The notes beneath the pieces are model-generated. The model did no database searches and was not told the origin of the DNA. It saw only the letters and a program-made list of their open reading frames with translations. Of a DNA stretch of 64,000 nt, positions 30,146 through 56,476 are shown one piece after another. The stretch comes from Desulfoscipio sp. XC116. GTDB lineage: Bacteria > Bacillota > Desulfotomaculia > Desulfotomaculales > Desulfallaceae. Position numbers and translations under genes: made by a program. Every line of letters starts with the position of its first letter. Position 1 is the first letter of the stretch. The stretch spans positions 558,001-622,000 of the forward strand of contig NZ_CP156660.1 in NCBI RefSeq assembly GCF_039851975.1. Reading direction: 5' to 3'.

Positions 30146-33100
30146 GTGCAAAACAAAAAACTACTTTTCATTGCGGTTACCCTGTGTCTGCTACTGGCAT
30201 TTACAGGCTCGGCTGCAATAGCCGAATTTTCCGATGTGTCCGGGCATTGGGCCCGGGAGCAAATCAATAAATGGGCCGATCAAGGCTTGGCCGCAGGCTA
30301 TGGGGACGGTACTTTTAAACCGGGCAGCCAGATTAGCCGGGCCGAATTTGTGGCCATGGTCAACCGGGCATTTGCTATTGATAAAACCGGCGCCACTAAC
30401 GGTTTTACCGATGTTAAATCCGACAAATGGTATTATGGCGACATTGCCGCTGCTAAAGCAGCCGGCTGTATAGGCGGCTATAAGGACGGTACCTTTAAAC
30501 CGGATCAAACCATTACCCGGCAGGAAGTGGCCGGTATTCTGGTTAGACTGCTGCAAATTAGTCCCGCCGCCGAAGGAGCGGCGCAGTTCAGCGATGCCGC
30601 TCAAATCCCGGCCTGGGCCAAAAGCAGCGTTGGCGCCGTGGCTGCCGCCGGTCTGATGCGGGGTATGCCCGACAATACGTTTCAGCCTTTGCAAGGCATC
30701 ACTCGGGCCGAAGCGATAGTTGCACTGGACCGGGCTATGGGAAACATACCGGGAACGCAGCCAAAACCGGGGAAAGAATCTGAACCCGCGGAGCAAAGCG
30801 CAGTGGAAGGTATCGTAACTTTTAAAGACAAGGTATTGGACAAGGTGGAAGTGCGGATATTTAAAGCCGGCAGTTATGAGATATTAAAGGAAGCCAAAAC
30901 CGATAGTCATGGCGTTTTTAAAGTTGATCTGGAAGCTGGAAAATACGACGTCACTGCTGTAACCGGTAGTGCGGTAGCCTATGCGACCGGTGTAAATGTA
31001 TCCGAAAATCAAGTTGCCGGAATAAACTTGGTTTTAGAAGATGCTGCTATTGTTAAAGGAGTTTTAAAAGATAAGAATAATCGGTTGGTCAAGGGCGCTG
31101 TCGTGCTATTTACCGCTAACCCGACTTTTATTGCCGCCACCAATAATAGCGGTGAATACACCATAGCTGTGGCGGCTAACAAAACCTATACCGTCCGTGC
31201 CTATGAATCCGGTAAAAAAGATAAGGCTCCCGGTATTGTTGGCGGCAAATTGGATATCGGTCCCCCGGGCAGTCAGAAAATTCATGACCTCAACTTTCCC
31301 GTGGCCGTCGGCAGCGGCAGCGGCGGTGGCAGCGGCGGCGGCGGAACTATGCAGCCGGAAACAATCACGGTTAAAGATGCCGGCGAATTGACGGCGGCAA
31401 TAAACAAGGCAGATAATGGGGACGCCATAAAGTTAACAGACGATATTGAAGGAGATATTGAACTTAACAAGTTGGTTAATCTCTGTTTAAATGGTAAAAC
31501 ATTAAATGGCGATGTCACTATAAACGCCAATGCATACGGCAGCCTGAATATCGCGGAGGAAACGAATGCGGGCACTATAACGGGCTGTCTAAAAGTAAAC
31601 GCGCCCAATGCCACGGTTAATAACTGGGCAACCGTAGGTGGAAATTTAATAATTGAAGACGTCGCCGGTAATACATGGAACGAGAGAGCTAAAAACAACA
31701 AATTGGTGGCCAACAACAAAAAAGCCATTGTGTTGAATATTATTGGCGGCGTGGCCTCCCTGGAGATAAGCGGTACGGGGAATATCAAGGTTACGTTAGA
31801 TCAGAACGCGGAATTGGCCGGGGCCGGCATAATTATTGACAGCGATGGCGGAGAGGTAATAATAAAAGGTGAAGGCGCCGGCCTGGGTAATGTTAACATA
31901 ATCGTTAACCGCCCGGCTACGATAATTACCCCTGAGCCTATAAGAGTTACCGCCGCGGAGGGTGTAGAAGTAACAGTTAAGCGGGATGAACAAGGTGAAG
32001 GCAAAACCGAGACGGGAACGGGGGAAGAAATGACATTGGAGCCTCCGGTTCCAGCCGCATTCACCCCTGGAGCAGGCGGAGCGATAGCATTCACTCCATT
32101 TGCAGCCTCGGAAGGCAAAATCGGCGGGCTCTATATCGGGAAAAACAGTAAATATTATGACGTTATTTTTGGTGGCAATCCGATATATCATCACTATGTG
32201 GAATTATGGTTTATTCCCGCCGTGGATCTTGGTGCGTCGGGGTATAAGCTCCAGTATTCGGAAGACGACGGGGAAACCTGGGATGATTATTTAAATAGTG
32301 ACTACGAGCCCCTGACTACCGGAGGGGATACTCAAGATAATTTTGTTGTCACTGATCCTTATGGCGAAACCATGTACAGGCTGGTCGTTATGGGCGGGGA
32401 TATGGATGGCTGTACATCCAATGAAGTGACTGCAACCATTCCCAAACCCGGCCTCGAAACTAAATTCACCGGATGGTCTTTGTATGAAGGTATGGATATC
32501 TCCGGGGTAATGCTGCCCTGGGTGGGCAGGGGATTGGAAGCCGGCTTTACGGCGCGGCTTTCGGATTACCCTTCCACAGCAGAAACGGTTTATGAAAATG
32601 TGTATATGGACTATCAGTGGTACAGGGTTAATCCGGTATCGTATGAAACGACAGCTATTCGCGGGGCGACGGAGCTGGAATACATTACTACGGAAGATGA
32701 TGTTGGATATAGTCTTTTGATCAGGGCCGAGGGCGATGATGAAAATATCAGCGGTTTTGCCCAGATTATGTCACACCATGGTATAATGATACCGAACGAA
32801 GCTTATATCAGCGATGTGACGGAAACGGGATTTGTTTTAAACCTGCATAAATCAGTTACCGGAGGGATAGCGCCGCAGGATTTGAAATTAATTGATTATA
32901 ATGGGGATGATGTAACAATAACAGGCGTGAGCCAGGGTGCGAATGCTGCGATCTATAATATTGCAGCGGACCTGGATCCCGCCAGGGGGCCCTTCTACCT
33001 TTGCAACACCTCCGATTTTTGGAAAATAGCAACGGCGCATGTTGGTCATGAACACGGAAATATGCTTATGGAAGGTATTGAGGTATCCTACAGCGTGGCG

Positions 33101-33358
33101 AGGTATAGTATCGATGTGGAACTTCCGGTGGGCGGAGCGGCATCGGTGGGTACTACCCCGAATATCCAGGCGGCAGCGGGCGAAACAATTACAGTGGATA
33201 TTCTAAATATCGAAGAAGGTAAACAGTTTAAATTAATCACGGTTAAAGATGAGGACAACGGGGTGGTGAGCACCACAGAGGTGACGTATGGAGAGGAATA
33301 CACCTTTACCATGCCCGCCAGTGCGGTGACTGTAACGGTCGAGCTGGAAGACGTATAG
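30146..33358 (+). CDS. S-layer-anchored protein with three SLH domains
   Basis: Secreted cell-wall protein, 1070 aa. Signal peptide at residues 1-26 (LLFIAVTLCLLLAFTGSAAIA). Three SLH domains follow: FSDVSGHWAREQINKWADQG (~28), FTDVKSDKWYYGDIAAAKAA (~89) and FSDAAQIPAWAKSSVGAVAA (~150). They bind pyruvylated secondary cell-wall polymer. Two carboxypeptidase-regulatory-like beta domains follow (~215-370), then a Gly/Ser linker GSGSGGGSGGGG (~393), a repetitive beta-rich region and Ig-like folds. The end, EEYTFTMPASAVTVTVELED, is typical of bacterial repeat domains. The start is GTG 30146 behind GGGAAGGGG. Ligand unknown. Confidence 0.85.
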   Translation: MQNKKLLFIAVTLCLLLAFTGSAAIAEFSDVSGHWAREQINKWADQGLAAGYGDGTFKPGSQISRAEFVAMVNRAFAIDKTGATNGFTDVKSDKWYYGDIAAAKAAGCIGGYKDGTFKPDQTITRQEVAGILVRLLQISPAAEGAAQFSDAAQIPAWAKSSVGAVAAAGLMRGMPDNTFQPLQGITRAEAIVALDRAMGNIPGTQPKPGKESEPAEQSAVEGIVTFKDKVLDKVEVRIFKAGSYEILKEAKTDSHGVFKVDLEAGKYDVTAVTGSAVAYATGVNVSENQVAGINLVLEDAAIVKGVLKDKNNRLVKGAVVLFTANPTFIAATNNSGEYTIAVAANKTYTVRAYESGKKDKAPGIVGGKLDIGPPGSQKIHDLNFPVAVGSGSGGGSGGGGTMQPETITVKDAGELTAAINKADNGDAIKLTDDIEGDIELNKLVNLCLNGKTLNGDVTINANAYGSLNIAEETNAGTITGCLKVNAPNATVNNWATVGGNLIIEDVAGNTWNERAKNNKLVANNKKAIVLNIIGGVASLEISGTGNIKVTLDQNAELAGAGIIIDSDGGEVIIKGEGAGLGNVNIIVNRPATIITPEPIRVTAAEGVEVTVKRDEQGEGKTETGTGEEMTLEPPVPAAFTPGAGGAIAFTPFAASEGKIGGLYIGKNSKYYDVIFGGNPIYHHYVELWFIPAVDLGASGYKLQYSEDDGETWDDYLNSDYEPLTTGGDTQDNFVVTDPYGETMYRLVVMGGDMDGCTSNEVTATIPKPGLETKFTGWSLYEGMDISGVMLPWVGRGLEAGFTARLSDYPSTAETVYENVYMDYQWYRVNPVSYETTAIRGATELEYITTEDDVGYSLLIRAEGDDENISGFAQIMSHHGIMIPNEAYISDVTETGFVLNLHKSVTGGIAPQDLKLIDYNGDDVTITGVSQGANAAIYNIAADLDPARGPFYLCNTSDFWKIATAHVGHEHGNMLMEGIEVSYSVARYSIDVELPVGGAASVGTTPNIQAAAGETITVDILNIEEGKQFKLITVKDEDNGVVSTTEVTYGEEYTFTMPASAVTVTVELEDV

Positions 33359-33482
33359 CGGCGGTTGTTCCGGAGTAGGCCAAGTTTGCAGCCTGGAATA
33401 GATCTGCCATTTACAATAACACATGGCGCCTTACTTCCCTAACTAACTTAACCCGTCAGCAGCTGCAAGAGCAAAACACAAT

Positions 33483-33539
33483 AACCCCCGGCAAACTTTG
33501 GAAGCTATCAAGCTTTTAAGGGGCCGGGGGTTTTCTTTT
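33483..33539 (+). terminator. Terminator of the SLH gene
   Basis: AACCCCCGGC (33483-33492) pairs with GCCGGGGGTT (33523-33532), followed by TTCTTTT. Confidence 0.85.
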
Positions 33540-33541
33540 GC

Positions 33542-33952
33542 TTTATGGATACTATGAATGTTAAAATATTTTGTTAGTGTTCTTCCAAAATAAATTCTCA
33601 TACTTCTTAAATAGATATTATCTGCAATTGGTATGTACGTCCTATCTCATTCCGTATGCTATTTAGATAAAGACTATAGTTTTGGTGGACAACAATTTTC
33701 CTTTTTTAAAAGATACTCGGATCTATTAAAATAGATCAGATCTTCATAAAAATAGATAAAACAAGCATAAAAAAGATGTAAATAAGCAATATAATAGTGC
33801 AAATAGCTAATTTTACAAAAAAATGTGAAAATGCTTTAATATTTATTATAATCAATGGATTTGGACGATAACATATTTGCCGCTAATATGGCAATCAATT
33901 AATTAAATAAACAGCTGTCAAGTGCTGTTTAATTATTGAAAAGCACTTTTGC
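33542..33952. other. AT-rich intergenic region
   Basis: Very AT-rich with short repeats of the type AAATAGAT near 33725-33765. No ORF of note. Its 3' end (from about 33926) is loosely similar to the region upstream of the giant-gene riboswitch, marking the start of the duplicated unit. Confidence 0.5.
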
Positions 33953-33999
33953 ATGATAAGCTAAAAATGTAAAAATTGTATAAATGTTTTATTATCAAT
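33953..33999. repeat. Copy 1 of 47-bp promoter-region repeat
   Basis: The 47-bp block starting ATGATAAGCTAAAAATG and ending TTTTATTATCAAT is identical to 37731-37777, which lies directly before the cobalamin riboswitch. Here it joins straight into the 3' end of the giant-gene copy, so the riboswitch and 5' gene body have been deleted. Confidence 0.9.
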
Positions 34000-34786
34000 C
34001 TATGTTGCGGCCGACGGGTCTTCCAAGATCACTGTAACGGCGCAGCCAAAGGACTCCGAGACCATCGACGGGATAACCTACACCTACGAACTGGAGTGCA
34101 TTACGGTCAATCAAAATGGGTCTGAGAAGGACATTACCGAAGACCGGTGGTTTCGGTCGAATTCCGACGCGGAGGTGAAAGCCTCCTTTAAAAAAGAAAA
34201 GGAAAAAAGTAAGAGCGATCCACCCGATGACGACCCGCCGGGCGGACCGGATCCGACACCGCCGAATGAATCGACTCCCAAAGAAAAAAACGATATCGGA
34301 ATCGGTAATGGAATAGGCGAGGGAATAGGCGAAGGAATAGGAGACGTAATAGGCGACATGATAGGTAACGTAATCGGAAACGTAATGGGAAGCGGCGCAG
34401 GCATCGGCGACCTCATCGCCAGCGGCCAGGGCGGTACGGCGGACGCGACGACAACAGACAAAATTGCGGCGCCTTCGCCGAACGGCGAGCAAGCTGCGGA
34501 TCAAGCTGTGACAGTCGCCCGGCAGGCCGATGTGACGGCGGTCAAACAGGATAGTCATCCCACCGAACAGCATGAGGAGAAGAACAGTGAACCGGCCGGC
34601 GGCGGCGGTGGTGGCGGTGGCAGCGAGCTCAAAGAGAAAGACGACAAGCAGCCCGTCATCTTTGAAATTGTCAAGAAGGCCGTGCGGGACAATCCCCTGA
34701 CTGCCGGGATCTTAACGGCAGCCGTTCTGGGGATCTTGCTGAGCGCCGGTTACCGCAGATATAGAAAGCATATGGGAGATCTTTAA
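33998..34786 (+). pseudogene. 3' fragment of the giant GLUG-repeat gene (copy 1)
   Basis: In-frame with codons from about 2747 to the end (3008) of the giant gene at 38163-47189 and nearly identical to it: IYVAADGSSKIT, the proline-rich PDDDPPGGPDPTPP, the GIG-tetrad segment and the C-terminal anchor FEIVKKAVRDNPLTAG. No start codon with a ribosome site exists, though GTG 34175 could open a 203-residue frame. The left junction at 33998 is a deletion point. It may still matter as a leader, because the LRR gene start at 34788 overlaps its end. Confidence 0.9.
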
Positions 34787-35088
34787 GATGGCTGTTCAAA
34801 GGACCCGGAGAAATTTACAACCAAAGAGATTTTCCTTAAGACTGGCCGCAAGCATCTTGCCGGTGTCTTAACAGGACTGCTGTTAGCGCCCTTTGCTTTG
34901 GCCGCGGGCAGTGCCGCAGACAGTGCGGGGACCCGGCAGGTTTCACCTGCCCGGGGTCCCCAAGTCCCTGCCGGTTCGGCCTCGGCCTCCTTGAAGTATA
35001 AGGTTGGAACGACAGGCGCAACTATCACGGACTGCGAGGAAAGCGCGACCGAGATTGCTGTTCCGGCTTACCTTGAAGGTAAGCCGGT
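33998..35088. repeat. 1.09-kb direct repeat, copy 1
   Basis: Near-identical to 46401-47491 (constant offset 12403); I noted one mismatch (GCTTACC here, GCTGACC there). It covers the 3' end of the giant gene and the 5' end of the LRR gene. The ends are the deletion junctions of the two decayed copies. Confidence 0.95.
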
Positions 35089-37663
35089 CACCGCCATAGG
35101 CTACTCGGCCTTCAGCAATTGCGCGGACCTGACGGCTATAACCTTGCCCTCCACCTTAAAGGCCATCGGCGACAGCGCTTTTGTAAACTGCAGCGCTCTG
35201 AAGGCGATCGCTTTGCCGGAAGGCCTGACTCAGTTAGGAGAAGAATCCTTCTTAAATTGTACCTCCTTGAGTGAGTTCAACATCCCGGCCAGCCTGGAGA
35301 GCTTCAGCGGCAATGCTTTTGCCAATTGCCCCAAGATCCGTTTTTCCCTGGCCGGGGCGAATCCCGGTTATATCCTTCAGGGGGGGGTGATTTATACCAA
35401 GGACCAAAAGACTCTCGTTGTGGCCGGGGCTAGCGACAGTCCGAACCCGGTGGTGCCGGATACGGTGACAAAGGTGGGCGACGGGGCCTTTCGGAATAAG
35501 TCCCTCACAGCCATTACCATGGGTTCCCATGTAACCGCTATTGGCAAGGAAGCCTTCAGCGGCTGTTCCCAGCTTGAGGAGGTTAATTTAAACGAAGGCT
35601 TAACAATGATTGACGACAGTGCCTTTGCCGGTACCTCCGCCTTAAAGGCCCTTGAATTGCCCGGCAGCTTGACTTCCTTAGGCATAACGGTTTTCCAAGG
35701 ATCGGGCCTGGAAAGTATTAATCTGTCCGGGACTCAACTGACAACACTGCCGCTGGGGACCTTTTGGGATTGCCTGCACTTGCAGGATATCGTGCTGGGC
35801 GATAAAATCACGGCCATAGAAAAAGGCGTTTTTCGGGACTGCACCTTTAAAACCATTACCTTGCCGGCCCAACTGCGGAGTCTCGGCGGTTGTTTCATCA
35901 ACTGTCCCAACTTGGAAACCCTTACCGTCCCTTACAGTGTCAGAGAGCTGGGAAGCAGTATGTTTCCCAACTGCACTGCCTTAAAGACGATCTATTTCGA
36001 AGGGAACATGCCCCTGCGGGGCGATAAGCCGGAAAACGATAATCGTTTCTATGCCCGGAAGGGTGATTCTTTTGCCCAATTGCCTTTGAAAACGGCGGAA
36101 AACCTGAAAATCTACGTACTCCAGGGGGCTAAAGGCTGGGGAGACTTTTTTGAGGATTATGCCGACGGCTATGCTATGGGGACAACCAAGAGAAGGCATT
36201 TTGAGTACAAGGTGAGCTATTATCCATTAGCTGAAGATGAGACGCCTCATTTAATCCTGCACCCCCCGGAATCTCTGACCGCTTTAGCAGCCGGCAGCTT
36301 CGCGGAAGCTATCGAAGTGGTCAAAGCGGGCATGCCGAAGGATGCGGGACCGGTTGAGTGGAGCCCCTCCGACAGTGGGGTGGCCACAGTCGACTCGTCT
36401 GGCCGGGTTGCGGCGGTTGCCGAAGGGGCAAGTCAAATTACGGCGGCTGTAACCTACCGGGGAACGGTTTATACGGCCGCAGCCGAGGTCAATGTGAGTG
36501 CTGCCGAATCAATTTTTAAGTGGAGCCGGCAAAGCGACGGCACGGTGATTATCAATGGCTTTCGCGATGGCCTGGACAAGGCCCAAATGACCTATCTGGA
36601 GATCCCGGAGACCATTGCCGGCTACCGGGTGAGTGCGATTAAAGATTTTGCCTTTAAAGACAATCTTAATATATTCAGCGTCACAATACCGGGCAGTCTC
36701 AAAACAGTCGGTGCCTATGCCTTTGGAGGCTGTCTTTGCCTAAGCGACATTACCTTGGGGGACGGCATAGAAGCCATAAACGACGGAGCTTTTTCAGCAA
36801 CCCTTATTAGAACGGTCGATATTCCCCGGAGTGTGGCCCGGCTGCAGAATTATGCCTTCAAAGACTGTCCGAGGCTGGAATCGGCCACCGTCGAGTCCGG
36901 CAATCTGGATTATTCCCTCGGTGCGGGGCTATTTTGGAACTGTACCAATCTCAAAAAAGTAAGCTTAGCCGAAGGAATTAAAGAAACCGGCGGTTTAACC
37001 TTTGCCGGCTGCGGCTCGCTGGAATCCATCACTCTTCCTTCGACCCTGCAGGCTCTGAGCTTTAACGACTTCAGCGGCTGTACCGCTCTTAAGAGCATCG
37101 GCCTGCAGAGCTACCTGCTCAAACAGGATATGCGAGATAAACCTCGTGCCAAAGACTACAGCCCGTTTGCGGCTCTAAAGGATGAGTTCCTCGGCCTTGA
37201 CCTGCCTGAATGCAATAAAGTCGTGGTAATTCTACACCCCGACGACGGTAACGACTGGGATATGCTTTTTGACAATCGGGTCAGGACCGAGACCTCGGCG
37301 GCGTTCGGGAACGGGGAAGGCAGGGAGGTAGGGTCGCCAAACCCGCTTGATCCCGGGCCTGAAAATTCAAGCCCGAACGCTCTTGCCGCGTCAAATTCGG
37401 CTCCGGCCCCTGAGACATCTTCCCACGCGGCTCCACCGATGGCTTTAGGCACAGCGGCGCCGGATCTGGACTCTATAAACAGCAGTGGGGCGTCTAAAAA
37501 AGCAACGGACGGTCCGGCTCAAAACAAGATGAAGGTTTTTGAAATTGTCAAGGATGCCGTTGCCGAAAATCCTTTGCTTTCTCTTGCGGCGGGGGCAATC
37601 ATTCTGGCGGTCCTGCTGCTGGGCGGGATAGGGAGATACCGAAGGTATGTAAGAAATCAATAA
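34788..37663 (+). CDS. BspA-like leucine-rich-repeat surface protein with frameshifted signal peptide
   Basis: Secreted protein whose mature part is open from 34898 (TTG) to 37663. It has two blocks of BspA/LRR_5 repeats (KAIGDSAFVNCSALKAIALP-type units, ~residues 45-400 and 540-790), with a Big_2 Ig-like domain between them (WSPSDSGVATVDSSGRVAAV). A low-complexity linker and a membrane anchor FEIVKDAVAENPLLSLAAGA...RYRRYVRNQ follow. The natural start is ATG 34788, preceded by GGGAG, which begins a signal peptide (MAVQRTRRNLQPKRFSLRLA). One base appears missing near 34859, and the hydrophobic part GVLTGLLLAPFALA continues in the frame of the LRR domain. The same lesion exists in the other copy. 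Export therefore depends on slippage, or the gene is crippled. BspA-type LRRs often act in adhesion. Confidence 0.8.
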
Positions 37664-37730
37664 AGCAAGTAATTTATCTTCACGTAACTTCATTGACTTA
37701 TTACCTGATTATTGGAAAGCACCCCTGCGA

Positions 37731-37777
37731 ATGATAAGCTAAAAATGTAAAAATTGTATAAATGTTTTATTATCAAT
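37731..37777. repeat. Copy 2 of 47-bp promoter-region repeat
   Basis: Identical to 33953-33999, with looser similarity extending about 25 bp upstream. AT-rich with TATAAA-like elements; probably holds the promoter of the riboswitch transcript. Confidence 0.85.
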
Positions 37778-37784
37778 AAGTGAT

Positions 37785-37975
37785 TTTGCGTAAAGCAGAA
37801 CTGAAAAGGGAAGCCGGTGCAAATCCGGCGCGGTTCCGCCACTGTGAGGGGGAGCCGGTCTGAAAAGATACCACTGGGGATTACCCGGGAAGGCTCAGGC
37901 CGGCAATGAACCCAAGCCAGGAGACCTGCTTATTGAAGCCTGCCGAAATAACTCACGGGAAATGGGGAGGTATGG
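37785..37975 (+). promoter_or_regulatory. Cobalamin (B12) riboswitch
   Basis: The conserved core is plain: GGGAAGCCGGTGCAAATCCG (from 37808), GCGCGGTTCCGCCACTGTGA (the B12-box region), and later AAGCCAGGAGACCTGCT (~37914-37930), with paired arms between. This is the canonical adenosylcobalamin aptamer, normally found before B12 transport or synthesis genes. Here it precedes the giant surface-protein gene and is followed by a terminator, so high cobalamin would be expected to reduce transcription. The boundaries are approximate. Confidence 0.93.
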
Positions 37976-37992
37976 AAATGTACAGATTACTA

Positions 37993-38021
37993 TGGCCCCC
38001 TTAACTGGAGGGTCTTTTTTA
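37993..38021 (+). terminator. Riboswitch expression-platform terminator
   Basis: GGCCCCCT pairs (one mismatch, one wobble) with GGAGGGTC around TTAACT, followed by TTTTTT. It lies just after the aptamer and before the giant gene. Confidence 0.75.
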
Positions 38022-38162
38022 ATGGAACTGGTTTACATACTTTACATGCTGACCGACCCGGAGGTATCGCTTCTTTTTGAGCAATGCTTTTTCAAAGTTA
38101 GTGTGTTAACCGGGACAAGCCATGGAAGCAAATAGATCATTAAAGAGGAGAACATAAAGAGA

Positions 38163-41100
38163 ATGCAAAAACGGAAGTTAAGGTTTATCTTGAGCATTTT
38201 TCTGTGTATCAACCTGCTGCTGCCGCAGATCATTATGCCGGCGTATGCGCATGGTTTTACCGCCGGTGGCACCGTAAACAGCAGTGTTTACGGAGACGGC
38301 GGCGACACCGGCACCATAAGTAGTGAGGTATATGGAGACAACGGCGATACCGTGGGCGACAGCGTCTACGGTATCGGTCTAGAAGGAATCGGCGTAGCCC
38401 TTTCCACGGCAGCGGCGGTATACGGAGCCTGGTATCTTGACAATCCAGAGGCTACGGCTTTTACCATATCCAACGCGGAAGAACTGCGCTATCTGGCCGA
38501 GCTGGTCAACGGCGAGGCGGTGGACGGGGAAGGGGCACAACTTGACGCCGTAAATTTCTCCGACGACATGATTACCCTGGCCAACGATATTACCCTGACC
38601 GGGGCCTGGACGCCCATCGGAAATTATTCCAATAAGTCCAACCAGTTCAACGGGACCTTTGAAGGCGGGGAGAATACGATTTCCCTGCCGGTTATCGGCA
38701 GTGAGCACAACCCCATAGTCAGTGATTATTACGGTTTGTTCGGCTATGCCAGCGGAGCGGCCATCAAAAACCTGACCGTCAACGGGGCGATCTACGGCAG
38801 CGGACAGTATGTGGGGGGCATTGTCGGCTATGCGGCAGGCAGCACCTTTCAAAACTGCGTTTTCGGTACCGACGCAGCCAGCGGCATCAGCAATTATTAC
38901 AACACCCCCAAAAAAATAGGCTATACCGGTGGTATTGTCGGTAATATGGCAGGTAGCCCTAAGGTAAAAGGCGTAATTGGGGATTGTACAAATAACGGGA
39001 CAGTTCTGAGCTTGGGTAATACCTTCACTACTTATACTGGGGGTATTGCCGGGGCAGCTTCGTCTACTCAGATCACGAACGCCAAAAATACGGGCGGGGT
39101 AGAAGGAAATAGTTATGCCGGCGGAATTGTCGCCTTTGCAAGCTCTTCACCGATTTTGTCTTCAGTCAATACAGGGACTGTGAAGAGCAGCGGCAGTTAT
39201 GTCGCGGGTATTGGCGGTAATATCACCGATATTATAACCGACTGTGAAAACGACGGGGAGATCAGCGGCGGCGCACAATACACCGGAGGTATTGCCGGTA
39301 AGACAACTAAAGCGGTTTCGGGATGCACCAACAATGGCGCAGTCCAGGGGGGAGCAGAATATGTCGGCGGCTTGGTGGGCTATTTTAGTGTATCAGCCGC
39401 CTCCTCCTTCATCAGTGACTGTGTAAACAACGGAGAAGTTTGGGGAGCCTCCGACAATGTGGGCGGTATTGCCGGTTATGCCCAATACAACGGGGCCGAC
39501 AATTGCGGCAATAAAGCCGCGGTTACGGGGAAATCCAATGTTGGCGGCATTATAGGCTATGTGGCTCGCAACGTTAAAGACTGCCAAAACGAAAGCAGTG
39601 TATCCGGCGAACAAAACGTCGGCGGCATCACAGGCTCATTTGTCGGCGGCGGCACTTATAATCTCACCGGCTGCGACACAAGTGCGGAGTCAACTATAAC
39701 AGGAGAATCCAATGTGGGCGGCATCGCCGGTTATGCCACGGGCACGGCGCAAAACAACACCAACCGGGCCAAGGTCACAGGAACCGGCAACGTGGGCGGT
39801 ATCATCGGTGATACAACAGCATTGGTCGCAACGTGTCTCAATGATTCCGGGGCGGTCCTGGCCGGAGGCGCCAATGTCGGCGGCATCGCCGGACGATCGG
39901 CGGCCAAAATTCAAACCAGCTGCAACCTTGCTCCGGCTGAGGCCATAACCGGGGAGGAAGCAGTCGGCAGCATTTTAGGGCAAGCCAATGGAGCGACGGC
40001 GCAAATCAGCGGCTGCTTCTCCTATACAAATCAGGAGTTAAGCGGCAGCGAAGTCAATATCGGCAACAGCTGCTATTTGGCCGGGGAGGACAGTACCTGC
40101 GGCAAAACCGCCGAAAGCTTCAAATACGGTCAAGTAGCCTACATCGTGGACGGCGGCGAAGACACTCACAGCAATGTCTGGCGTCAGGGCGACAACTATC
40201 CGGTCTTCAGCACAACAGGCACGGATTCGGTCTATAAACTGAGCCTCAGCCAACCTGCCGAGTCTTATGCGGCCGGATCGGCAACCTTTGCCGAACTGCC
40301 TGCCGGGGATGAATACAGTCATTGTAAATATTTCACTGCCCCGGACGGCGGCCGGTATATCTACCTGCCCGGCGGTTTGCCGGTAAATTTGCAGGTTCAG
40401 AAAAACGCGGGCTACGAAAACTATATTCCCACCTTCCGTCCGGAGCGGGAGGTAACGGAGGATAACGGCGTTTATACCGTTACCCTTGGCACCCGCAATG
40501 TCGATTTAACCTATGGATTTTTAAATCCCGCGGACAACCCCGGCGGAAGTTCGGCCTGGTACAACAACGGCAAAGGCAATGCCGAGGGGGAATTCATTAT
40601 TGCCACAGAAAGCGACCTAAAATATCTGGCCTCACTGGTCAACGGTACGGCAACCGATGGCAGCGGGGCGGCGCTCAGCGATTCTTTCCAAGACAAGACG
40701 CTGGAACTGGGCGCCAACATTACTTTAAGTCAAAGTTGGACAGCGATAGGGACGGCCGGCAAACCCTTTAAAGGGACCCTGGAAGGCAGCGGCCATACCA
40801 TCAGCGGCCTGTATGTCGATAGCGGGAGCGGCCATCAAGGCCTGTTCGGTTATACCGAAGGCGGCGCAATAAAAGACCTGACCGTAAGCGGCACTGTTTT
40901 CAGCGACGGAGATTGCGCCGGCGGTATTGTGGGCTGCGCCTCGAATACGGCTCTGACCAATTGTACCTTTGGCGGCGCGGCCGAAACAAGTGCGGTCGCC
41001 GGCGCCTCCAACGTGGGCGGCATCGCGGGCAAGGCCACAGGGAACCTTAGCCAATGCAGCAATGCCGGAGCGGCCGTCAAAGGAAGCGGCGCCGGCGTTG

Positions 41101-44100
41101 GCGGTATTGCCGGTACTGCGGCGGGGGCGGTCAGTGATTGCGACAACAGTGGGACCGTGACCGGAAGCGCCGGCAACGTCGGTGGGATAGCGGGCAGTGC
41201 GGACGGCGTGGTGAGCAACTGCAGCAACGAAGGAGCAGTGACCGGGGAACCCGGCTGTATAGGCGGGATTGTTGGCTTGGCTACCAATACGATTACGGAT
41301 TGCCATAATAAAGATACAGCTGTAATTACCGGTGAAGGCAGTACAACGAGCCAGTATGTGGGCGGCATTGTAGGCTGCACAACCATGGGAGTCAAAAATT
41401 GTATCAATTCCGCCGCGGTTACCGGCAGCCAAAATTACATCGCCGGTATCGCAGGTTTTAATAAGTCTAGCGGTACCGAAGATACGGACGGCATGTATGA
41501 CATAATTGAGTGCAGCAATGAAGGGGCGATAAGCGGCGCGGGTTATGTTGGCGGTATTATCGGCGGTGGTATGTCCGGCGGCGGTATGGGGTACGGAATA
41601 AGCGGGTGTACCAATTCGGGGGCCATCACGGGAGTGACTCAGTATATAGGCGGCATAGCCGGCGGTTCGAAAGTAAGCGTCGCGGACTCAAACAAGATGG
41701 GCGCGGAAAATTGTAATAATTACGGTTCAGTTAGCTGCAGCGGGAATACGGAATTACAGTATGTCGGTGGAATTATAGGTTCCCTTCAAGGTAAGATGGT
41801 GGGTTGTCTGAATTCGGGCAGTGTAACAGGCACCATGGATTATGTCGGCGGTATTGTGGGATATGCCTATGTGGGAAGTTGGAATAAAGATATTAATAAG
41901 TGCGGCAACACAGGAGCTATAACAGGCGCCGATTATGTGGGCGGTATTGTGGGATATGGCGAAAAGAAACCGACTGGTTGGACTCTGGAGATTAAAGACT
42001 GCTATAATCTCGGCAGTGTCTCAGGAGCTTTGGGACAGGAAAATGTCGGTGGTATCGCGGGCTGCAATAAAGCGAGTACTAACTGTTCATTCTCTTATGC
42101 CAGCGGGGCCAACGGCATTTGCGGTTCTAATTCCACTCTTCCTTATAACTCCTACTACTTGGTTGATGGCGAAAGCGATGCCTCGGCCGCTAAAAACGCC
42201 GCCGCCTTTAGGAACGGTGAGGTTGCCTATTTGCTGGATTTAAACAAGGCCGCGGCCGACAAGGCCTGGACCCGGGGAGAAGCTTATCCGATGCTTAAAG
42301 GCACGGATACGACGGGTTCGATTTATAAGCTGACCTTAACCAAAGCGGTTGACAGCGCCGCGGGGGCGGGTTCGGTAACTTTTGCTCCACCGGCTGAAGA
42401 CAGTCCTTATGAAATCCTCACTGCGGAGGACGGCAGTCAATACACTTACTTGCCGGCGGGTACGGCAGTTACTTTAAATGCGGACAGGGCTCCCGGCTAT
42501 GAACACTATAATCTCACGTTTGTGCCGGCAGATATAGTTACTATAGCCGGCGAAGAGGGCGGCAGGGTAACTTATAAGTTAACAATGGCGGAGAGTAATG
42601 CGAACGATCTGTCTTTGAAATATAAATTTTCCGTACCGGCTTCCAGTTCCGTGGAGTGGTACAATCCAGACAAGGACAGTTATCATCTGGAGACCTATGC
42701 CGATCTTGTGGGCTTGGCGGAGCTGGTAAACGGGGAAAAGTCGGATGGAACAGTGGTGACGCCTGTTGACTTTAGCGGCAAAACGATTAATTTAGACGCT
42801 GATATCGTGATTAGCGGCGGTTTTGTCCCCATAGGCACCCCTGCCGGGCCTTTCACAGGGATATTTGACGGCAACAATCATACCATTTCGAGCTTGTCCC
42901 TGGATAGTTTGCATGCTTATCAGGGCTTATTCGGATACACAAAAGGCGGGGAAATTAAAAATTTAACGCTGCAGGGAAGCATTAAAAGCAGCAATAATTA
43001 TATCGGCGGAATAGTCGGTTATGCCGGGGGTACGGCGCTTACGAACTGCCAAACGGCCGGCGGCGCCGACGGAACTGCAATCAGCAGTGTAAGCGGCGGA
43101 AATTATGTCGGCGGGATTGCCGGTTATGTTGAAGCCGCGGAAGTCGGAAATTGTACGAATGAGGCAATTGTTAGCGGTTCAGAAGAGGTCGGCGGTATTG
43201 CCGGCGGTATCAACAATGCGGCGCTTACTGATTGTATAAATAATGCTTCAGTCGAAAATTCCAAGGTTGATGGTTATCGTTACCAAACCAACTTTGGCGG
43301 TATCGCCGGACAGGCGAGCGGAACCATCTCAGGCTGTACGAACAAGGGTAACGTAACAGGCAATACAAACAGAAACGCTGGCATTATTGGAGAGCTAACG
43401 GGAACGGTGACCCGCTGCACCAATAGCGGTGCTGTCACGAATGGTGGAGGCATTGTTGGCAGACTATCCTCGGGAACGGCAATTTATTGCAGCAATAGCG
43501 GCGATATCACGGGTGGTGGAGGCATTACCGGCAGTCTATCCTCGGGAACGGTAACTTATTGCAGCAACAGCGGCACTATTGCGGAACGCGGCGGAGGCAT
43601 CACCGCTGGTCTCGGACCGGGAACAATGGTGGCCTATTGCAGCAATAGCGGCGCTATCACTGGAGGCGGCGGAGGTATCGCTAGCAGCAATTACGGTACC
43701 GTCGCGAATTGTTACAACCTCGGGCTAATATCCGGCGACCACGCTACAGGCGGCATTGCCGGCTTATCCTCAGATGGTATTGTTAAATATTGCTATAACT
43801 ATAGTCCTTACGAATCATCGGATGTTAGTTGGGCGGTAATTGCAGGCGTGGGTCCGAGCGACAGCAGCAACATTGTAAATTGTTATTATTGCAGTGATCT
43901 GCTCTCGGGAACTCCTATGGACGGCAATTATGCGACGGCAAAAAGCAAGGAGGAATTTAAAAGCGGTGAAGTGGCCTATCTCCTCGATGGCGGAAACGAA
44001 GCTCTGCGAAAGGGAATTTGGAGCCAATACCGGACCGACACATTGGGCTACCCTGTTTTGGCGGGTGATAGCCAAGGCGTTGTATACAAAGCCGAAATCG

Positions 44101-47100
44101 GGTCGGTAACAGGCGGCAATCTGGAATTTAATTCGGATTATAATTATTTCAACGCCGGTGATGTTGTATCTCTGACGGTCACTCCGGCCGAGGGGATGAT
44201 GCTCAAAACCGTAAAAGTCAGGACCGCTTATTATCCGGTAGACTGCACCAGAGCGGGCCTGGTGTTCACCTTTACCATGCCTGCCGCCGATGTCAAGGTG
44301 GCGGCGGAATTTGTGGCAAGTACCGATGAAGATTGTACCGTAACCTTTGATGCTAACGGCGGTGAATTTTCCGGCGGTAAGGAGACTAATGAGGTAAAGG
44401 TTCGCGCTGGCAGCCAAGTCGTTGCTCCGGCTGCTCCCAGCCGGGAGAACATGGCGTTTTTGGGCTGGTACACGGTAGCGAGCGGTGGTGAAAAATACAA
44501 CTTTGCGGATTCGGCAACCGCTTCTTTCACCCTTTATGCTCACTGGAAGGAAGCGGGCAAAGTCATCGTTACCTTTGACGCCAACGGCGGACTGGTTGAA
44601 GGAGCCGTTGCTTATGAGCAAATAATCGATTCGGGCAGTCAAGCTACAGAACCTGCCGCTCCTTCATTCAGCAGCGACGACAAGACCATTTCGTATACCT
44701 TTGGCGGCTGGTTTACGCAAAGAAGCGGCGGAACGGAGTGGAACTTTGCCGACCCGGTTAATGATGATCTGACGCTGTACGCCCGGTGGACGCCAACGGA
44801 CAATTTAGCCGGGGGGTTTAAGATTATGAGTGCGGAGGATCTGAACGCGCTGAAGGATAGAGTTAAAAACGGCGAGACCTTTGCCGGTAAGCTTTTTGAG
44901 CTGGGGGAAAATATTACTCTCGACTCTGACAATTGGCAGGAAGGTATCGCTATGAATTCTTTGTTGCCGTTTCAGGGAACTTTTAATGGGAATGGCAATA
45001 CAATCACTTTCCAGGACGTCTCAGCTCCTCTGTTTGGTTATATCGGGGATAAGGCGGAAGTAACAGGCCTCACAGTAGAGGGTAGTTTTAACGTTACAAG
45101 TGACAATGTAGGAGCTGTTGCCGGCCACAATGCCGGAAAGATTTCTTGTATCACCGTTGATGTTGACTTTAGTGGAGAATGTCACGACAATATCGGGGGT
45201 GTTGCGGGCATCTTTAGCGAAGGAAGCAAGGATGCCGGATTTACGGATTGTACAAATTCAGGGACTATTTATGGAGCCGATTATGTTGGAGGAATAGTCG
45301 GTAAATCCACCGTGCAGGGGGCTGCTGTTGAACGCTGCCACAACAGTGGTGTTGTTCATGGAGAAGGAGGACAATATATCGGCGGTATTATCGGGGGGGC
45401 AACTTATAGTCTGAGTATTAGCGGATGTACTAATGAGGGCACTCTGCTTTTAGACGGAAAGAAGATAAGTGATAGCGGTGCTGTCGGGACAAGTAATATC
45501 GGCAGTATCGGCGGTATTATTGGTGGTATTCATGGTGGGACAATCACGGATTGCCATAATGAGGGAAATATTACTGATACCGCCACAACTGCTGACCCAC
45601 TTGCTATCACATCTGGCGTAGGCGGTATAGTGGGGAGTGGCAACAATCGAGAAGAAGACTACAGCTCAGGCTACCCTACAATAGATAAATGCAGTAATAC
45701 AGGCAGGATCGAGGCGGAATCAACAGGTGGCGTTGGCGGTTTGGTTGGAACATATGTTTATAATATTTCAGAATCCTCTAATACCGGTGAGATAATCGGT
45801 AAAAACGGGGCTGGCGGATTGTGTGGCAGCTTGCTATACGGTCAAATCAAGAGCTGCTTCAGCACGGGTGATGTAACAGCGGTTCATGGTGTGGCCGGAG
45901 GATTGGTGGGCACTAATGGCTCGGAAGTATATAATTGTTACTGCACCGGTAAGATTCAAGGCGCTACCGGCGCTTATGGTATAGAAGATGTAGGCGCCAT
46001 TCGCAACAGTTACTGGTACGGCCTGTTTCTTACCGCCGCTAACGGGGAGGCCTATGGAATAAGCAGGGCGGGGACGAACAGCGCTAACAATTACTATGGT
46101 CTTCAGGACTCGGATTCAGACTCGGATGAGGGTTCTCCTTCCCTGACGGATCCCAATGACGGAGTAAGCTCCGCCTTAAAGACGGCGGGCCAATTCGCCA
46201 GCGGCGAAGTAGCCTATTTGCTGGACACCGGCAATGACGGAAGCGAGGATGCGCCTAAAAGCTGGACCCAGGACGACACGAAAGGTTATCCGGTCCTGGG
46301 AGAGCCGCATTACTGCAAAATAACCGTCGAAGGAAGCGACGGCGGCACGGTTGCCGTTAGTCTGGAAGGGAGCGGCAAGCAAGGCGACCCGGAAACACCG
46401 ATCTATGTTGCGGCCGACGGGTCTTCCAAGATCACTGTAACGGCGCAGCCAAAGGACTCCGAGACCATCGACGGGATAACCTACACCTACGAACTGGAGT
46501 GCATTACGGTCAATCAAAATGGGTCTGAGAAGGACATTACCGAAGACCGGTGGTTTCGGTCGAATTCCGACGCGGAGGTGAAAGCCTCCTTTAAAAAAGA
46601 AAAGGAAAAAAGTAAGAGCGATCCACCCGATGACGACCCGCCGGGCGGACCGGATCCGACACCGCCGAATGAATCGACTCCCAAAGAAAAAAACGATATC
46701 GGAATCGGTAATGGAATAGGCGAGGGAATAGGCGAAGGAATAGGAGACGTAATAGGCGACATGATAGGTAACGTAATCGGAAACGTAATGGGAAGCGGCG
46801 CAGGCATCGGCGACCTCATCGCCAGCGGCCAGGGCGGTACGGCGGACGCGACGACAACAGACAAAATTGCGGCGCCTTCGCCGAACGGCGAGCAAGCTGC
46901 GGATCAAGCTGTGACAGTCGCCCGGCAGGCCGATGTGACGGCGGTCAAACAGGATAGTCATCCCACCGAACAGCATGAGGAGAAGAACAGTGAACCGGCC
47001 GGCGGCGGCGGTGGTGGCGGTGGCAGCGAGCTCAAAGAGAAAGACGACAAGCAGCCCGTCATCTTTGAAATTGTCAAGAAGGCCGTGCGGGACAATCCCC

Positions 47101-47189
47101 TGACTGCCGGGATCTTAACGGCAGCCGTTCTGGGGATCTTGCTGAGCGCCGGTTACCGCAGATATAGAAAGCATATGGGAGATCTTTAA
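38163..47189 (+). CDS. Giant GLUG-repeat cell-surface protein (3008 aa)
   Basis: Signal peptide at residues 1-29 (LSIFLCINLLLPQIIMPAYA). Three modules of ~700 residues start near 90, 798 and 1498, each opening W..N...-ELRYLAELVNG-like, then W.PIG....F.G.F.G..H.IS. Each continues with many GLUG units (NVGGIAGYA..., C.N.G.V.G) and closes with GEVAYLLD...GYPVL. Two InlB-type B repeats (VTFDANGG...GWYT) lie at ~2058 and ~2135, then a shorter fourth GLUG module from ~2213. The tail has a Pro-rich linker, a GIG-tetrad segment (~2846-2880), a poly-Gly run, and the anchor FEIVKKAVRDNPL + TM + RRYRKHMGDL. GLUG domains occur in adhesins and IgA-protease-like proteins. Start ATG 38163 after AAAGAGGAG. 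Expression is under a cobalamin riboswitch. Confidence 0.9.
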   Translation: MQKRKLRFILSIFLCINLLLPQIIMPAYAHGFTAGGTVNSSVYGDGGDTGTISSEVYGDNGDTVGDSVYGIGLEGIGVALSTAAAVYGAWYLDNPEATAFTISNAEELRYLAELVNGEAVDGEGAQLDAVNFSDDMITLANDITLTGAWTPIGNYSNKSNQFNGTFEGGENTISLPVIGSEHNPIVSDYYGLFGYASGAAIKNLTVNGAIYGSGQYVGGIVGYAAGSTFQNCVFGTDAASGISNYYNTPKKIGYTGGIVGNMAGSPKVKGVIGDCTNNGTVLSLGNTFTTYTGGIAGAASSTQITNAKNTGGVEGNSYAGGIVAFASSSPILSSVNTGTVKSSGSYVAGIGGNITDIITDCENDGEISGGAQYTGGIAGKTTKAVSGCTNNGAVQGGAEYVGGLVGYFSVSAASSFISDCVNNGEVWGASDNVGGIAGYAQYNGADNCGNKAAVTGKSNVGGIIGYVARNVKDCQNESSVSGEQNVGGITGSFVGGGTYNLTGCDTSAESTITGESNVGGIAGYATGTAQNNTNRAKVTGTGNVGGIIGDTTALVATCLNDSGAVLAGGANVGGIAGRSAAKIQTSCNLAPAEAITGEEAVGSILGQANGATAQISGCFSYTNQELSGSEVNIGNSCYLAGEDSTCGKTAESFKYGQVAYIVDGGEDTHSNVWRQGDNYPVFSTTGTDSVYKLSLSQPAESYAAGSATFAELPAGDEYSHCKYFTAPDGGRYIYLPGGLPVNLQVQKNAGYENYIPTFRPEREVTEDNGVYTVTLGTRNVDLTYGFLNPADNPGGSSAWYNNGKGNAEGEFIIATESDLKYLASLVNGTATDGSGAALSDSFQDKTLELGANITLSQSWTAIGTAGKPFKGTLEGSGHTISGLYVDSGSGHQGLFGYTEGGAIKDLTVSGTVFSDGDCAGGIVGCASNTALTNCTFGGAAETSAVAGASNVGGIAGKATGNLSQCSNAGAAVKGSGAGVGGIAGTAAGAVSDCDNSGTVTGSAGNVGGIAGSADGVVSNCSNEGAVTGEPGCIGGIVGLATNTITDCHNKDTAVITGEGSTTSQYVGGIVGCTTMGVKNCINSAAVTGSQNYIAGIAGFNKSSGTEDTDGMYDIIECSNEGAISGAGYVGGIIGGGMSGGGMGYGISGCTNSGAITGVTQYIGGIAGGSKVSVADSNKMGAENCNNYGSVSCSGNTELQYVGGIIGSLQGKMVGCLNSGSVTGTMDYVGGIVGYAYVGSWNKDINKCGNTGAITGADYVGGIVGYGEKKPTGWTLEIKDCYNLGSVSGALGQENVGGIAGCNKASTNCSFSYASGANGICGSNSTLPYNSYYLVDGESDASAAKNAAAFRNGEVAYLLDLNKAAADKAWTRGEAYPMLKGTDTTGSIYKLTLTKAVDSAAGAGSVTFAPPAEDSPYEILTAEDGSQYTYLPAGTAVTLNADRAPGYEHYNLTFVPADIVTIAGEEGGRVTYKLTMAESNANDLSLKYKFSVPASSSVEWYNPDKDSYHLETYADLVGLAELVNGEKSDGTVVTPVDFSGKTINLDADIVISGGFVPIGTPAGPFTGIFDGNNHTISSLSLDSLHAYQGLFGYTKGGEIKNLTLQGSIKSSNNYIGGIVGYAGGTALTNCQTAGGADGTAISSVSGGNYVGGIAGYVEAAEVGNCTNEAIVSGSEEVGGIAGGINNAALTDCINNASVENSKVDGYRYQTNFGGIAGQASGTISGCTNKGNVTGNTNRNAGIIGELTGTVTRCTNSGAVTNGGGIVGRLSSGTAIYCSNSGDITGGGGITGSLSSGTVTYCSNSGTIAERGGGITAGLGPGTMVAYCSNSGAITGGGGGIASSNYGTVANCYNLGLISGDHATGGIAGLSSDGIVKYCYNYSPYESSDVSWAVIAGVGPSDSSNIVNCYYCSDLLSGTPMDGNYATAKSKEEFKSGEVAYLLDGGNEALRKGIWSQYRTDTLGYPVLAGDSQGVVYKAEIGSVTGGNLEFNSDYNYFNAGDVVSLTVTPAEGMMLKTVKVRTAYYPVDCTRAGLVFTFTMPAADVKVAAEFVASTDEDCTVTFDANGGEFSGGKETNEVKVRAGSQVVAPAAPSRENMAFLGWYTVASGGEKYNFADSATASFTLYAHWKEAGKVIVTFDANGGLVEGAVAYEQIIDSGSQATEPAAPSFSSDDKTISYTFGGWFTQRSGGTEWNFADPVNDDLTLYARWTPTDNLAGGFKIMSAEDLNALKDRVKNGETFAGKLFELGENITLDSDNWQEGIAMNSLLPFQGTFNGNGNTITFQDVSAPLFGYIGDKAEVTGLTVEGSFNVTSDNVGAVAGHNAGKISCITVDVDFSGECHDNIGGVAGIFSEGSKDAGFTDCTNSGTIYGADYVGGIVGKSTVQGAAVERCHNSGVVHGEGGQYIGGIIGGATYSLSISGCTNEGTLLLDGKKISDSGAVGTSNIGSIGGIIGGIHGGTITDCHNEGNITDTATTADPLAITSGVGGIVGSGNNREEDYSSGYPTIDKCSNTGRIEAESTGGVGGLVGTYVYNISESSNTGEIIGKNGAGGLCGSLLYGQIKSCFSTGDVTAVHGVAGGLVGTNGSEVYNCYCTGKIQGATGAYGIEDVGAIRNSYWYGLFLTAANGEAYGISRAGTNSANNYYGLQDSDSDSDEGSPSLTDPNDGVSSALKTAGQFASGEVAYLLDTGNDGSEDAPKSWTQDDTKGYPVLGEPHYCKITVEGSDGGTVAVSLEGSGKQGDPETPIYVAADGSSKITVTAQPKDSETIDGITYTYELECITVNQNGSEKDITEDRWFRSNSDAEVKASFKKEKEKSKSDPPDDDPPGGPDPTPPNESTPKEKNDIGIGNGIGEGIGEGIGDVIGDMIGNVIGNVMGSGAGIGDLIASGQGGTADATTTDKIAAPSPNGEQAADQAVTVARQADVTAVKQDSHPTEQHEEKNSEPAGGGGGGGGSELKEKDDKQPVIFEIVKKAVRDNPLTAGILTAAVLGILLSAGYRRYRKHMGDL

Positions 47190-47491
47190 GATGGCTGTTC
47201 AAAGGACCCGGAGAAATTTACAACCAAAGAGATTTTCCTTAAGACTGGCCGCAAGCATCTTGCCGGTGTCTTAACAGGACTGCTGTTAGCGCCCTTTGCT
47301 TTGGCCGCGGGCAGTGCCGCAGACAGTGCGGGGACCCGGCAGGTTTCACCTGCCCGGGGTCCCCAAGTCCCTGCCGGTTCGGCCTCGGCCTCCTTGAAGT
47401 ATAAGGTTGGAACGACAGGCGCAACTATCACGGACTGCGAGGAAAGCGCGACCGAGATTGCTGTTCCGGCTGACCTTGAAGGTAAGCCGGT
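46401..47491. repeat. 1.09-kb direct repeat, copy 2
   Basis: Partner of 33998-35088. It covers the last 262 codons of the giant gene and the first ~300 bp of the LRR pseudogene. Right of 47491 the sequence jumps to what follows the LRR gene of copy 1 (ATGTAAGAAATCAATAAAGC, compare 37646 onward). Confidence 0.95.
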
Positions 47492-47552
47492 ATGTAAGAA
47501 ATCAATAAAGCAAGTAATTATTTTCTTAGTAAGTTTTACCCTCCGTTTTTAA
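47191..47552 (+). pseudogene. LRR surface-protein remnant (copy 2)
   Basis: Same 5' end as the LRR gene at 34788, including the split signal peptide. About 2.56 kb is deleted between GTAAGCCGGT and ATGTAAGAAATC, joining residue ~61 of the mature frame to the last bases of the gene out of frame; it ends at 47552. The LRR domains and anchor are lost. Confidence 0.85.
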
Positions 47553-52548: not shown

Positions 52549-52586
52549 CTTGCTTGAGGCGGGGGTGCGCGATAAACAATTGTCTA

Positions 52587-52739
52587 CTAATCAATGCTCC
52601 CGGCTTTTGGGGCTTCGTTTAAAAAGTTTACATAGCATTGCCGGATTTCCGGTTTTTCAAGTAAATGGCTAAGTTCTTTGATTGGAAGGTTGAGGTAATC
52701 CCTGTCCAGGCGGTGCACCATTGGCGTTTGATAACTCAT
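52587..52739 (-). CDS. Possible small ORF or gene fragment between cas6 and cas8b
   Basis: The minus-strand frame of 50 codons begins MSYQTPMVHRLDRDYLNLPI and ends KAGSID, with good coding-like composition but no clear ribosome site before ATG 52739. I do not recognise a family; it may be the tail of a lost gene. Confidence 0.35.
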   Translation of the reverse strand: MSYQTPMVHRLDRDYLNLPIKELSHLLEKPEIRQCYVNFLNEAPKAGSID

Positions 52740-52854
52740 CGTACATCAGCAAAATTATAACCCCTTTTGTAGTTTTATTAACCCTTATAAGTAGACTATC
52801 AACAAAAACAAATGTTTCAATTCCTTGTTCAGGTAATAATATGAAATTTTTATC

Positions 52855-52882
52855 TTGACAATTATTACTTTAAAATTATGAT
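52855..52882 (+). promoter_or_regulatory. Candidate promoter of the cas8b-cas2 operon
   Basis: TTGACA (52855-52860), a 16-bp AT-rich spacer, then TATGAT (52877-52882), 67 bp before the cas8b start. Confidence 0.65.
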
Positions 52883-52948
52883 ATATGCAATATCTATGTA
52901 TAACCGACAAAACCAAATTAAAATAAAAATTTGATTGGAGGTGAAAAA

Positions 52949-55661: not shown

Positions 55662-55671
55662 GGTGATGTTA

Positions 55672-56400: not shown

Positions 56401-56476
56401 TTTTTGCCCCCGGCTTTACAGACCGGGGACATTTTCTATTTTTTCAATAGATCTCATGAGATAGGGAGGGTTTGAA

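Follow-up and report, generated by a model that had tools for sequence, protein, structure and literature searches.

A cobalamin riboswitch before a 3008-residue GLUG-repeat surface protein in Desulfoscipio sp. XC116 and its predicted place in corrinoid scavenging

We analyzed a 64,000-nucleotide stretch of the genome of Desulfoscipio sp. XC116 (NZ_CP156660.1, positions 558,001 to 622,000 of the forward strand), in which a cobalamin riboswitch precedes the gene of a 3008-residue surface protein built of GLUG repeats (GLUG1). This stretch is called the window, and positions refer to it unless another sequence is named. The organism most probably lives by sulfate reduction. Control of the giant by B12 is very likely, and membership of the giant in a corrinoid-scavenging surface regulon is likely. 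We propose that the giant serves as a scaffold or as a receptor in an apparatus by which the cell surface would scavenge corrinoids. The best explanation of the locus, which we hold with moderate confidence, is that GLUG1 is a paralogue of the structural part of a corrinoid scaffold or receptor operon containing ExbB, DUF2149, GLUG, and leucine-rich repeat (LRR) genes. Papers are cited by PMC number.

Results

The riboswitch matches the full length of the Rfam model RF00174 (model positions 1-189 of 189) at 37761-37947 on the plus strand, with 116.4 bits and an E-value of 1.7e-28; the gathering score of the model is 31.5 bits. Its B12 box, AAGCCAGGAGACCTGC, is intact at 37914-37929. The expression platform follows at 37948-38020 (+) and contains a terminator hairpin (37994-38014) with a U-run (38015-38020) directly 3' of it. 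Folded alone, the hairpin has -11.3 kcal/mol. When the whole leader is folded computationally, the 5' arm of the terminator pairs mainly (about 0.77) with 37964-37969, so two mutually exclusive leader structures are possible. The terminator alone is weak evidence, as a consensus scan gives 11 terminator-like sites in 33300-38300 versus 6.2 ± 2.5 in shuffled sequences. The folding of the leader barely beats shuffles (z of -1.98, with 10 of 200 shuffles as good). The terminator and its competing structure, in a platform that is kept in the leader of a second GLUG gene (GLUG2), predict an element able to control the gene. A consensus promoter scan lists no plus-strand promoter between the upstream LRR gene and the aptamer. 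We read the element as a transcription-terminating cobalamin riboswitch with predicted control. An earlier sequence-only reading had placed an aptamer and a terminator before the 3008-residue gene, and both are borne out (116.4 bits for the aptamer, 37994-38020 for the terminator), with the correction that its starting point of 37785 falls inside the aptamer.

Corrinoid shortage is predicted to raise the expression of the giant. This direction is plausible because in Dehalobacter corrinoid starvation increases transcription behind cobalamin riboswitches that have predicted terminators (PMC4285132). Operon-2 of the corrinoid-starvation response of Dehalobacter restrictus resembles the present case in its clostridial lineage and its cobalamin riboswitches with predicted terminators, accompanied by CbiZ and transport genes, and its first gene changes 346-fold (PMC4285132). 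The difference is that the words 'surface' and 'S-layer' are absent from the main text of that paper (PMC4285132).

GLUG1 is a 3008-codon open frame (38163-47189, +) that starts 3' of a Shine-Dalgarno-like AGAGGAG, read from the sequence at 38144-38150 (+). Inspection by eye suggests a hydrophobic N-terminal leader and a C-terminal hydrophobic anchor with a basic tail, FEIVKKAVRDNPLTAGILTAAVLGILLSAGYRRYRK. Between these ends are repeated GLUG modules with InlB/Flg_new-type spacers and a Gly/Asp-rich stretch. Pfam recognizes Glug (84.4 bits), Flg_new of the InlB type (96.7 bits), and Flg_new_2 (29.1 bits), in agreement with the earlier description of a GLUG surface giant and not a B12 transporter or enzyme. 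One GLUG unit (residues 688-1390) was modelled as a plain beta-helix from a six-row alignment, with a mean predicted local distance difference test score (pLDDT) of 75.1. GLUG1 thus combines the GLUG motif with the predicted fold of GLUG beta-helix surface proteins. In the PDB sequence search of GLUG1, the InlB-type repeat is the only matching part, and the defence-system library gives no match.

The 4.26-Mb genome has 19 cobalamin riboswitches, and the genes behind them were classed by reading, with family searches for many of them. Eight riboswitches have a large or secreted protein as the first gene, namely three GLUG giants, including that of the window, and five DUF4430-type or related surface loci. 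One precedes an ExbB-like gene. For nine, the first or an early gene is CobT, CobU, CbiM, CbiK-like, CbiZ/CbiS-like (two cases), BtuC-like, NikB-like, or a methyltransferase, where the '-like' assignments score below the NCBIfam cut-offs. The remaining one (C1:3370039-3370222, 117.4 bits) has no clear same-strand gene in the next kilobases. GLUG1 shares its kind of riboswitch with the transcobalamin-like DUF4430 genes, the CbiZ-like amidohydrolases, the BtuC-like permease, and CbiM of the same genome. The earlier claim that the surface protein is made when corrinoid is scarce is supported as a prediction.

The three GLUG giants are full-length and each lies behind a cobalamin riboswitch, as found with the N-terminal and C-terminal parts of the giant as queries. 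Further related places are the tail copy in the window and a weak, stop-containing match at C1:2585462. The window aptamer shares 91% identity with its counterpart before GLUG2 and 78-80% with those before two DUF4430-type genes. The riboswitch of the third giant (GLUG3) is divergent and is not among the five nearest to the window aptamer. Between GLUG1 and GLUG2, 170 of 183 aptamer positions (10 gaps) and 66 of 72 platform positions (1 gap) are identical, and the proteins are identical at 1507 of 2825 aligned positions (53%). Conservation continues at about the level of the leader into the first 33 codons (88 of 100 bases), and recent descent, not selection, may therefore account for some of the similarity between the leaders.

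The order riboswitch, ExbB-like, DUF2149, GLUG giant, and LRR_5 is found in two organisms. Desulfosporosinus sp. SRJS8 (NZ_JAJDOO010000049.1) has, behind a cobalamin riboswitch (109.7 bits), genes for a MotA/TolQ/ExbB-family protein, a DUF2149 protein, a 3480-residue GLUG giant, and an LRR_5 protein that is cut by the end of the sequence stretch. The C-terminal anchor of this giant is closely similar to that of GLUG1. This Desulfosporosinus locus is the only one from a scan of named genomes with narrow peptide patterns. In the genome of the window, the GLUG2 locus has the order riboswitch, ExbB, DUF2149, riboswitch, GLUG, and LRR, and a riboswitch with a DUF4430-type gene comes next. The ExbB and DUF2149 proteins of the two organisms are 78% and 76% identical, and the DUF2149 gene of the GLUG2 locus (C1:1946750) is the only match to this family in the genome. 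At the window locus, ExbB-like and DUF2149 genes were not found together, where no model search for ExbB was made. GLUG1 is a paralogue of the giant that would be the structural part of this operon, in which the ExbB-like protein would be a proton channel. The search for other GLUG surface genes behind B12 riboswitches, which the sequence-only reading had recommended, therefore gave two more giants in this genome and one in Desulfosporosinus sp. SRJS8. Among 398 genomes of the phylum, the C-terminal part of the giants has matches in 15. Outside the genome of the window, only one of these is strong (G387, 118.7 bits) and the others are short, weak stretches. The frame of the G387 giant (2941 residues) runs to the contig end; no riboswitch is present in the available part, and the start and leader lie outside it.

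Transcobalamins carry DUF4430 at their C-terminal end (PMC4350170). Our own DUF4430 profile has transcobalamin-2 as its best, weak match in the PDB (E 0.076). DUF4430 gives 62 matches in 21 of the 41 genomes searched. For 59 of them, a same-strand cobalamin riboswitch is present no more than 10 kb upstream, against a chance expectation of about 0.8 and a reverse-side control of 6; these 21 genomes hold 148 cobalamin riboswitches, and several matches in one gene were counted separately. LRR_5 and DUF4430 occur in one chain at two loci of relatives (L075 and L078). A 1830-residue protein of the window's genome joins a GLUG-like module, DUF4430, and SLH, where the GLUG-like module rests on a blastp match to the Desulfosporosinus giant (E 1.6e-12) with no Pfam Glug match. 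The 412-residue protein behind the riboswitch at 1932624 scores 20.4 bits for DUF4430, below the Pfam cut-off, and is called DUF4430-type by alignment. Its 407-residue relative at 3008646 has no Pfam match and is likewise DUF4430-type by alignment. A 213-residue protein at C1:3326528 looked DUF4430-like by eye and is unsupported by our profile.

Two islands of cobalamin riboswitches were observed in relatives. In the first (G039:C1:2077500-2152000, L073-L076), thirteen cobalamin riboswitches lie in 75 kb, many before surface genes. Twelve proteins of this island were scanned; two are cohesin-SLH proteins and nine have dockerins, some with DUF4430 or LRR_5, as in a cellulosome-like assembly under predicted B12 control. 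The second (G012:C20:118000-167000, L077-L079) has six cobalamin riboswitches in the fetched stretch. A giant of this island (frame of 3954 residues, of which 3481 were scanned) contains LRR_5, DUF4430 in two stretches, and a weak toroid match below the cut-off.

The window locus has been rearranged. A 1071-bp segment is exactly duplicated (33998-35068 and 46401-47471), and so is one of 47 bp (33953-33999 and 37731-37777). These duplications suggest that a unit of leader, riboswitch, GLUG, and LRR was doubled. After the doubling, the left copy appears to have lost the riboswitch and nearly the whole GLUG gene, and the right copy the interior of the LRR gene. The left copy retains a leader piece that spans the 5' border of the aptamer (33953-33999, +) and a duplicate of the 3' end of GLUG1 (33998-34786, +; identical to 46401-47189), with a residual ORF at 34175-34786. 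An LRR_5 (BspA-type) surface protein follows as a 921-residue open frame (34898-37663, +; Pfam LRR_5, 323.5 bits). In the original place behind GLUG1, the internal deletion left the 5' and 3' ends of the LRR gene as a remnant (47190-47519, +). The presumed start and signal-peptide region of the LRR gene (34789-34897) appears frame-shifted in both copies, so the window LRR gene is probably impaired. It is 51% identical to an intact 947-residue LRR protein directly behind the GLUG giant at the second locus. This intact gene supports an LRR protein as a former member of the window unit, and the earlier suggestion that an LRR protein was once under the riboswitch is right in outline. With no DUF2149 beside GLUG1 and a broken LRR neighbor, the window copy is derived.

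Other features of the window lie outside this unit. Upstream of the locus, a 1070-residue secreted-looking protein (30146-33358) matches an internalin-like NEAT model below the cut-off in its N-terminal part. Genes 3' of GLUG1, after 47.6 kb, encode EtfB, EtfA, a GlcD-like protein, and a NirB-like protein of 218 residues. A glmS ribozyme (RF00234, 111.7 bits) at 13241-13393 is upstream of a 609-residue ORF at 13556. CRISPR genes (Cas6, Csh1/Cas8b, Csh2/Cas7, and Cas5, by type I-B models) and CRISPR-DR2 repeats occupy 51790-62943, with more repeats beyond the window.

Discussion

In the explanation that we favor, ample corrinoid cofactor would let the terminator form and the giant would not be made, and corrinoid shortage would allow transcription of the 9-kb gene. 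These steps are suggested by the sequence and by related riboswitches. The giant would be exported and held by its C-terminal hydrophobic segment, with the beta-helical GLUG modules reaching through the wall. The complete operon may build a scaffold or receptor, coupled to the proton motive force, whose ligands would be corrinoids or corrinoid precursors. The DUF4430 surface proteins, the CbiZ-like salvage enzymes, and the BtuC-like transport behind riboswitches of this kind may act together with it. The window GLUG1 would be an accessory paralogue, as it lacks an LRR partner and a DUF2149 gene beside it.

In favor of this explanation are the aptamer and terminator, the cobalamin riboswitch before each of the three giants, the similar leaders of GLUG1 and GLUG2, the shared gene order in Desulfosporosinus sp. 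SRJS8, the DUF4430 and LRR_5 counts, the chains that join DUF4430 to LRR_5 or to a GLUG-like module, and the CobN-like neighbors of DUF2149 in relatives. Several results weigh against it. With genes for CobT, CobU, CbiM, and a CbiK-like protein, the organism may make its own cobamides. Neither DUF4430 nor another known corrinoid-binding domain is found in the GLUG giants with Pfam and our DUF4430 profile (E 0.35 for GLUG1 among 13 proteins), and NCBIfam and PDB-sequence searches of GLUG1 are likewise negative. The GLUG beta-helix model is closest to IgA1-protease-type proteins and gives no ligand hint; its best PDB match is the putative IgA1 protease 3n6z (E 6.1e-5), the sole match below E 0.001. 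The corrinoid capture suggested earlier is favored by the genomic context and by an association kept in paralogues and in another genus, whereas direct binding of corrinoids by the GLUG modules, modelled as plain beta-helices and without DUF4430, is unsupported. In G013, G015, and G039, the GLUG-bearing relatives whose riboswitch lists are complete, no GLUG match is near a cobalamin riboswitch, and the link seems to be a property of this GLUG subfamily and not of GLUG. The LRR_5 count (29 matches in six genes of 3 genomes, with five of the six genes behind cobalamin riboswitches and the sixth being that of the window) speaks for the explanation, with the limit that its 21 genomes were selected for bearing DUF4430. 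Nine fetched surface-gene clusters with short DUF2149 genes include none with a cobalamin riboswitch and three with a Moco riboswitch. The GLUG-operon ExbB falls with the ExbB proteins of other surface-gene clusters and not with the CobN type, with a long-branch warning. This grouping weighs against a simple replacement of CobN by GLUG.

The partners of the GLUG operon resemble a known uptake system. In the hmuYRSTUV operon of Bacteroidota, an ExbB/TolQ-family channel and a DUF2149 protein are encoded with a receptor and a chelatase (PMC10434189, PMC12583661). The receptor there is an outer-membrane TonB-dependent protein and the chelatase is the CobN-like HmuS (PMC10434189, PMC12583661), whereas the GLUG system has GLUG and LRR giants, a cobalamin riboswitch, a Bacillota host, and no CobN (HmuS) match in the genome. 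In relatives, a CobN-like gene adjoins DUF2149 at seven of the eight strong matches, and a cobalamin riboswitch precedes six of these eight loci. Six relatives (L091-L096) have a cassette of cobalamin riboswitch, DUF2162-like, ExbB-like, DUF2149, and CobN-like genes that resembles hmuSTUV, where the DUF2162 identity comes from L091 and no ExbB frame is listed for L094.

We tentatively extend the corrinoid explanation to a Gram-positive, proton-motive-force-coupled form of corrinoid capture at the envelope, in which GLUG and LRR giants would replace the CobN-like chelatase beside ExbB and DUF2149. It could be one case of a wider rule, by which a giant behind a cofactor riboswitch is part of a system that captures this cofactor. 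The named cases are B12 with DUF4430 transcobalamin-like domains and the Moco/tungsten riboswitch with molybdopterin-binding domains in two fetched relatives. As a separate observation, giants of 2340 and 2610 residues lie directly behind Moco/tungsten riboswitches (RF01055) at L083 (G002, 4805-12064) and L085 (G005, 10376-2310). Both have molybdopterin-binding domains (Oxidored_molyb, 74.5 and 78.8 bits) and are near DUF2149 genes, which suggests the same logic as in the B12 giants for another cofactor. L089 (G004) has two Moco/tungsten riboswitches (RF01055).

The ligand may differ from finished cobamides. Capture of cobalt, a corrinoid precursor, or another tetrapyrrole, driven by ExbB-DUF2149 as in the heme Hmu system, is unlikely in our estimate. 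It would agree with the CobN-like genes next to DUF2149 under cobalamin riboswitches in relatives, with the heme operon hmuSTUV, which has the same set of CobN, hypothetical, ExbB, and DUF2149 genes (PMC10434189), and with the cobalt-uptake gene CbiM behind a cobalamin riboswitch in this genome. The lack of a CobN-like match in the genome speaks against it, and corrinoids are the ligands indicated by the DUF4430 genes that follow related riboswitches.

We give little credence to a role of the giants as adhesins, in which GLUG and LRR proteins would attach the cell to corrinoid-producing neighbors and the riboswitch would turn adhesion on at corrinoid shortage. The GLUG, InlB-type, BspA-type LRR, and immunoglobulin-like (Ig-like) domains are typical of adhesins. 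Some syntrophic sulfate reducers are predicted cobalamin auxotrophs, and some have cohesin/dockerin proteins as putative adhesins (PMC10553843), which also agrees with this role. The association with ExbB/DUF2149, DUF4430, CbiZ-like, and BtuC-like genes fits nutrient uptake better, and we found nothing that specifically favors attachment to corrinoid-supplying cells, which had been proposed earlier.

It is quite improbable that the aptamer was merely carried along in the leader duplication and that the window copy is a decaying paralogue without a present corrinoid function. The rearranged locus, with its left and right deletions and the apparently shifted LRR frame, the position of the only DUF2149 match at the second locus, and the possible recent descent indicated by the first 33 codons would fit such decay. 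Against it, the 3008-codon frame is open, and the aptamer and platform are kept at 92-93% versus an overall protein identity of 53%. GLUG3 also has its own divergent riboswitch, and Desulfosporosinus keeps one too. The genes downstream of GLUG1 are ruled out as the real B12 target, being Etf, GlcD-like, and NirB-like and not B12 genes.

The corrinoid-scavenging explanation joins a line of known systems. B12 scavenging by transcobalamin-like SLBB/DUF4430 surface proteins of Gram-positive bacteria was proposed by Burroughs et al. in 2007 (PMC1796856). Those proteins consist of several domains and are secreted or bound to the wall, and their operons often include another, paralogous surface gene along with CbiO/CbiQ-type genes (PMC1796856), and in the genome of the window such proteins share their riboswitch kind with the GLUG giants. 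The GLUG giants differ in having no DUF4430, and the main text of Burroughs et al. contains none of the terms riboswitch, leucine-rich, TolQ, ExbB, and CobN (PMC1796856). BtuG and BtuH of Bacteroides are also bacterial B12-binding proteins of the surface or of uptake loci; judged by their descriptions, they belong to Bacteroidetes transport loci and are set apart from a 3000-residue beta-helix protein of Bacillota (PMC6143338, PMC8941943). In the open-licence literature searched, we did not meet GLUG/LRR giants, or the ExbB-DUF2149-GLUG-LRR operon, under cobalamin riboswitches. The sequence-only reading had called the function new for this architecture. This fits the combination of GLUG, LRR, and ExbB-DUF2149, while B12 scavenging by large DUF4430 surface proteins of Gram-positive bacteria had already been proposed (PMC1796856).

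The uptake of large, scarce external cofactors by thick-walled anaerobes is poorly known. Here, functionally uncharacterized surface giants stand behind RNA switches whose ligand is known, which lets the ligand of the giants be guessed. If our explanation is true, one uptake system would unite giant scaffolds with transcobalamin-like binding and an energy coupler of the ExbB type, and the functions of further orphan surface giants could be assigned from their riboswitches.

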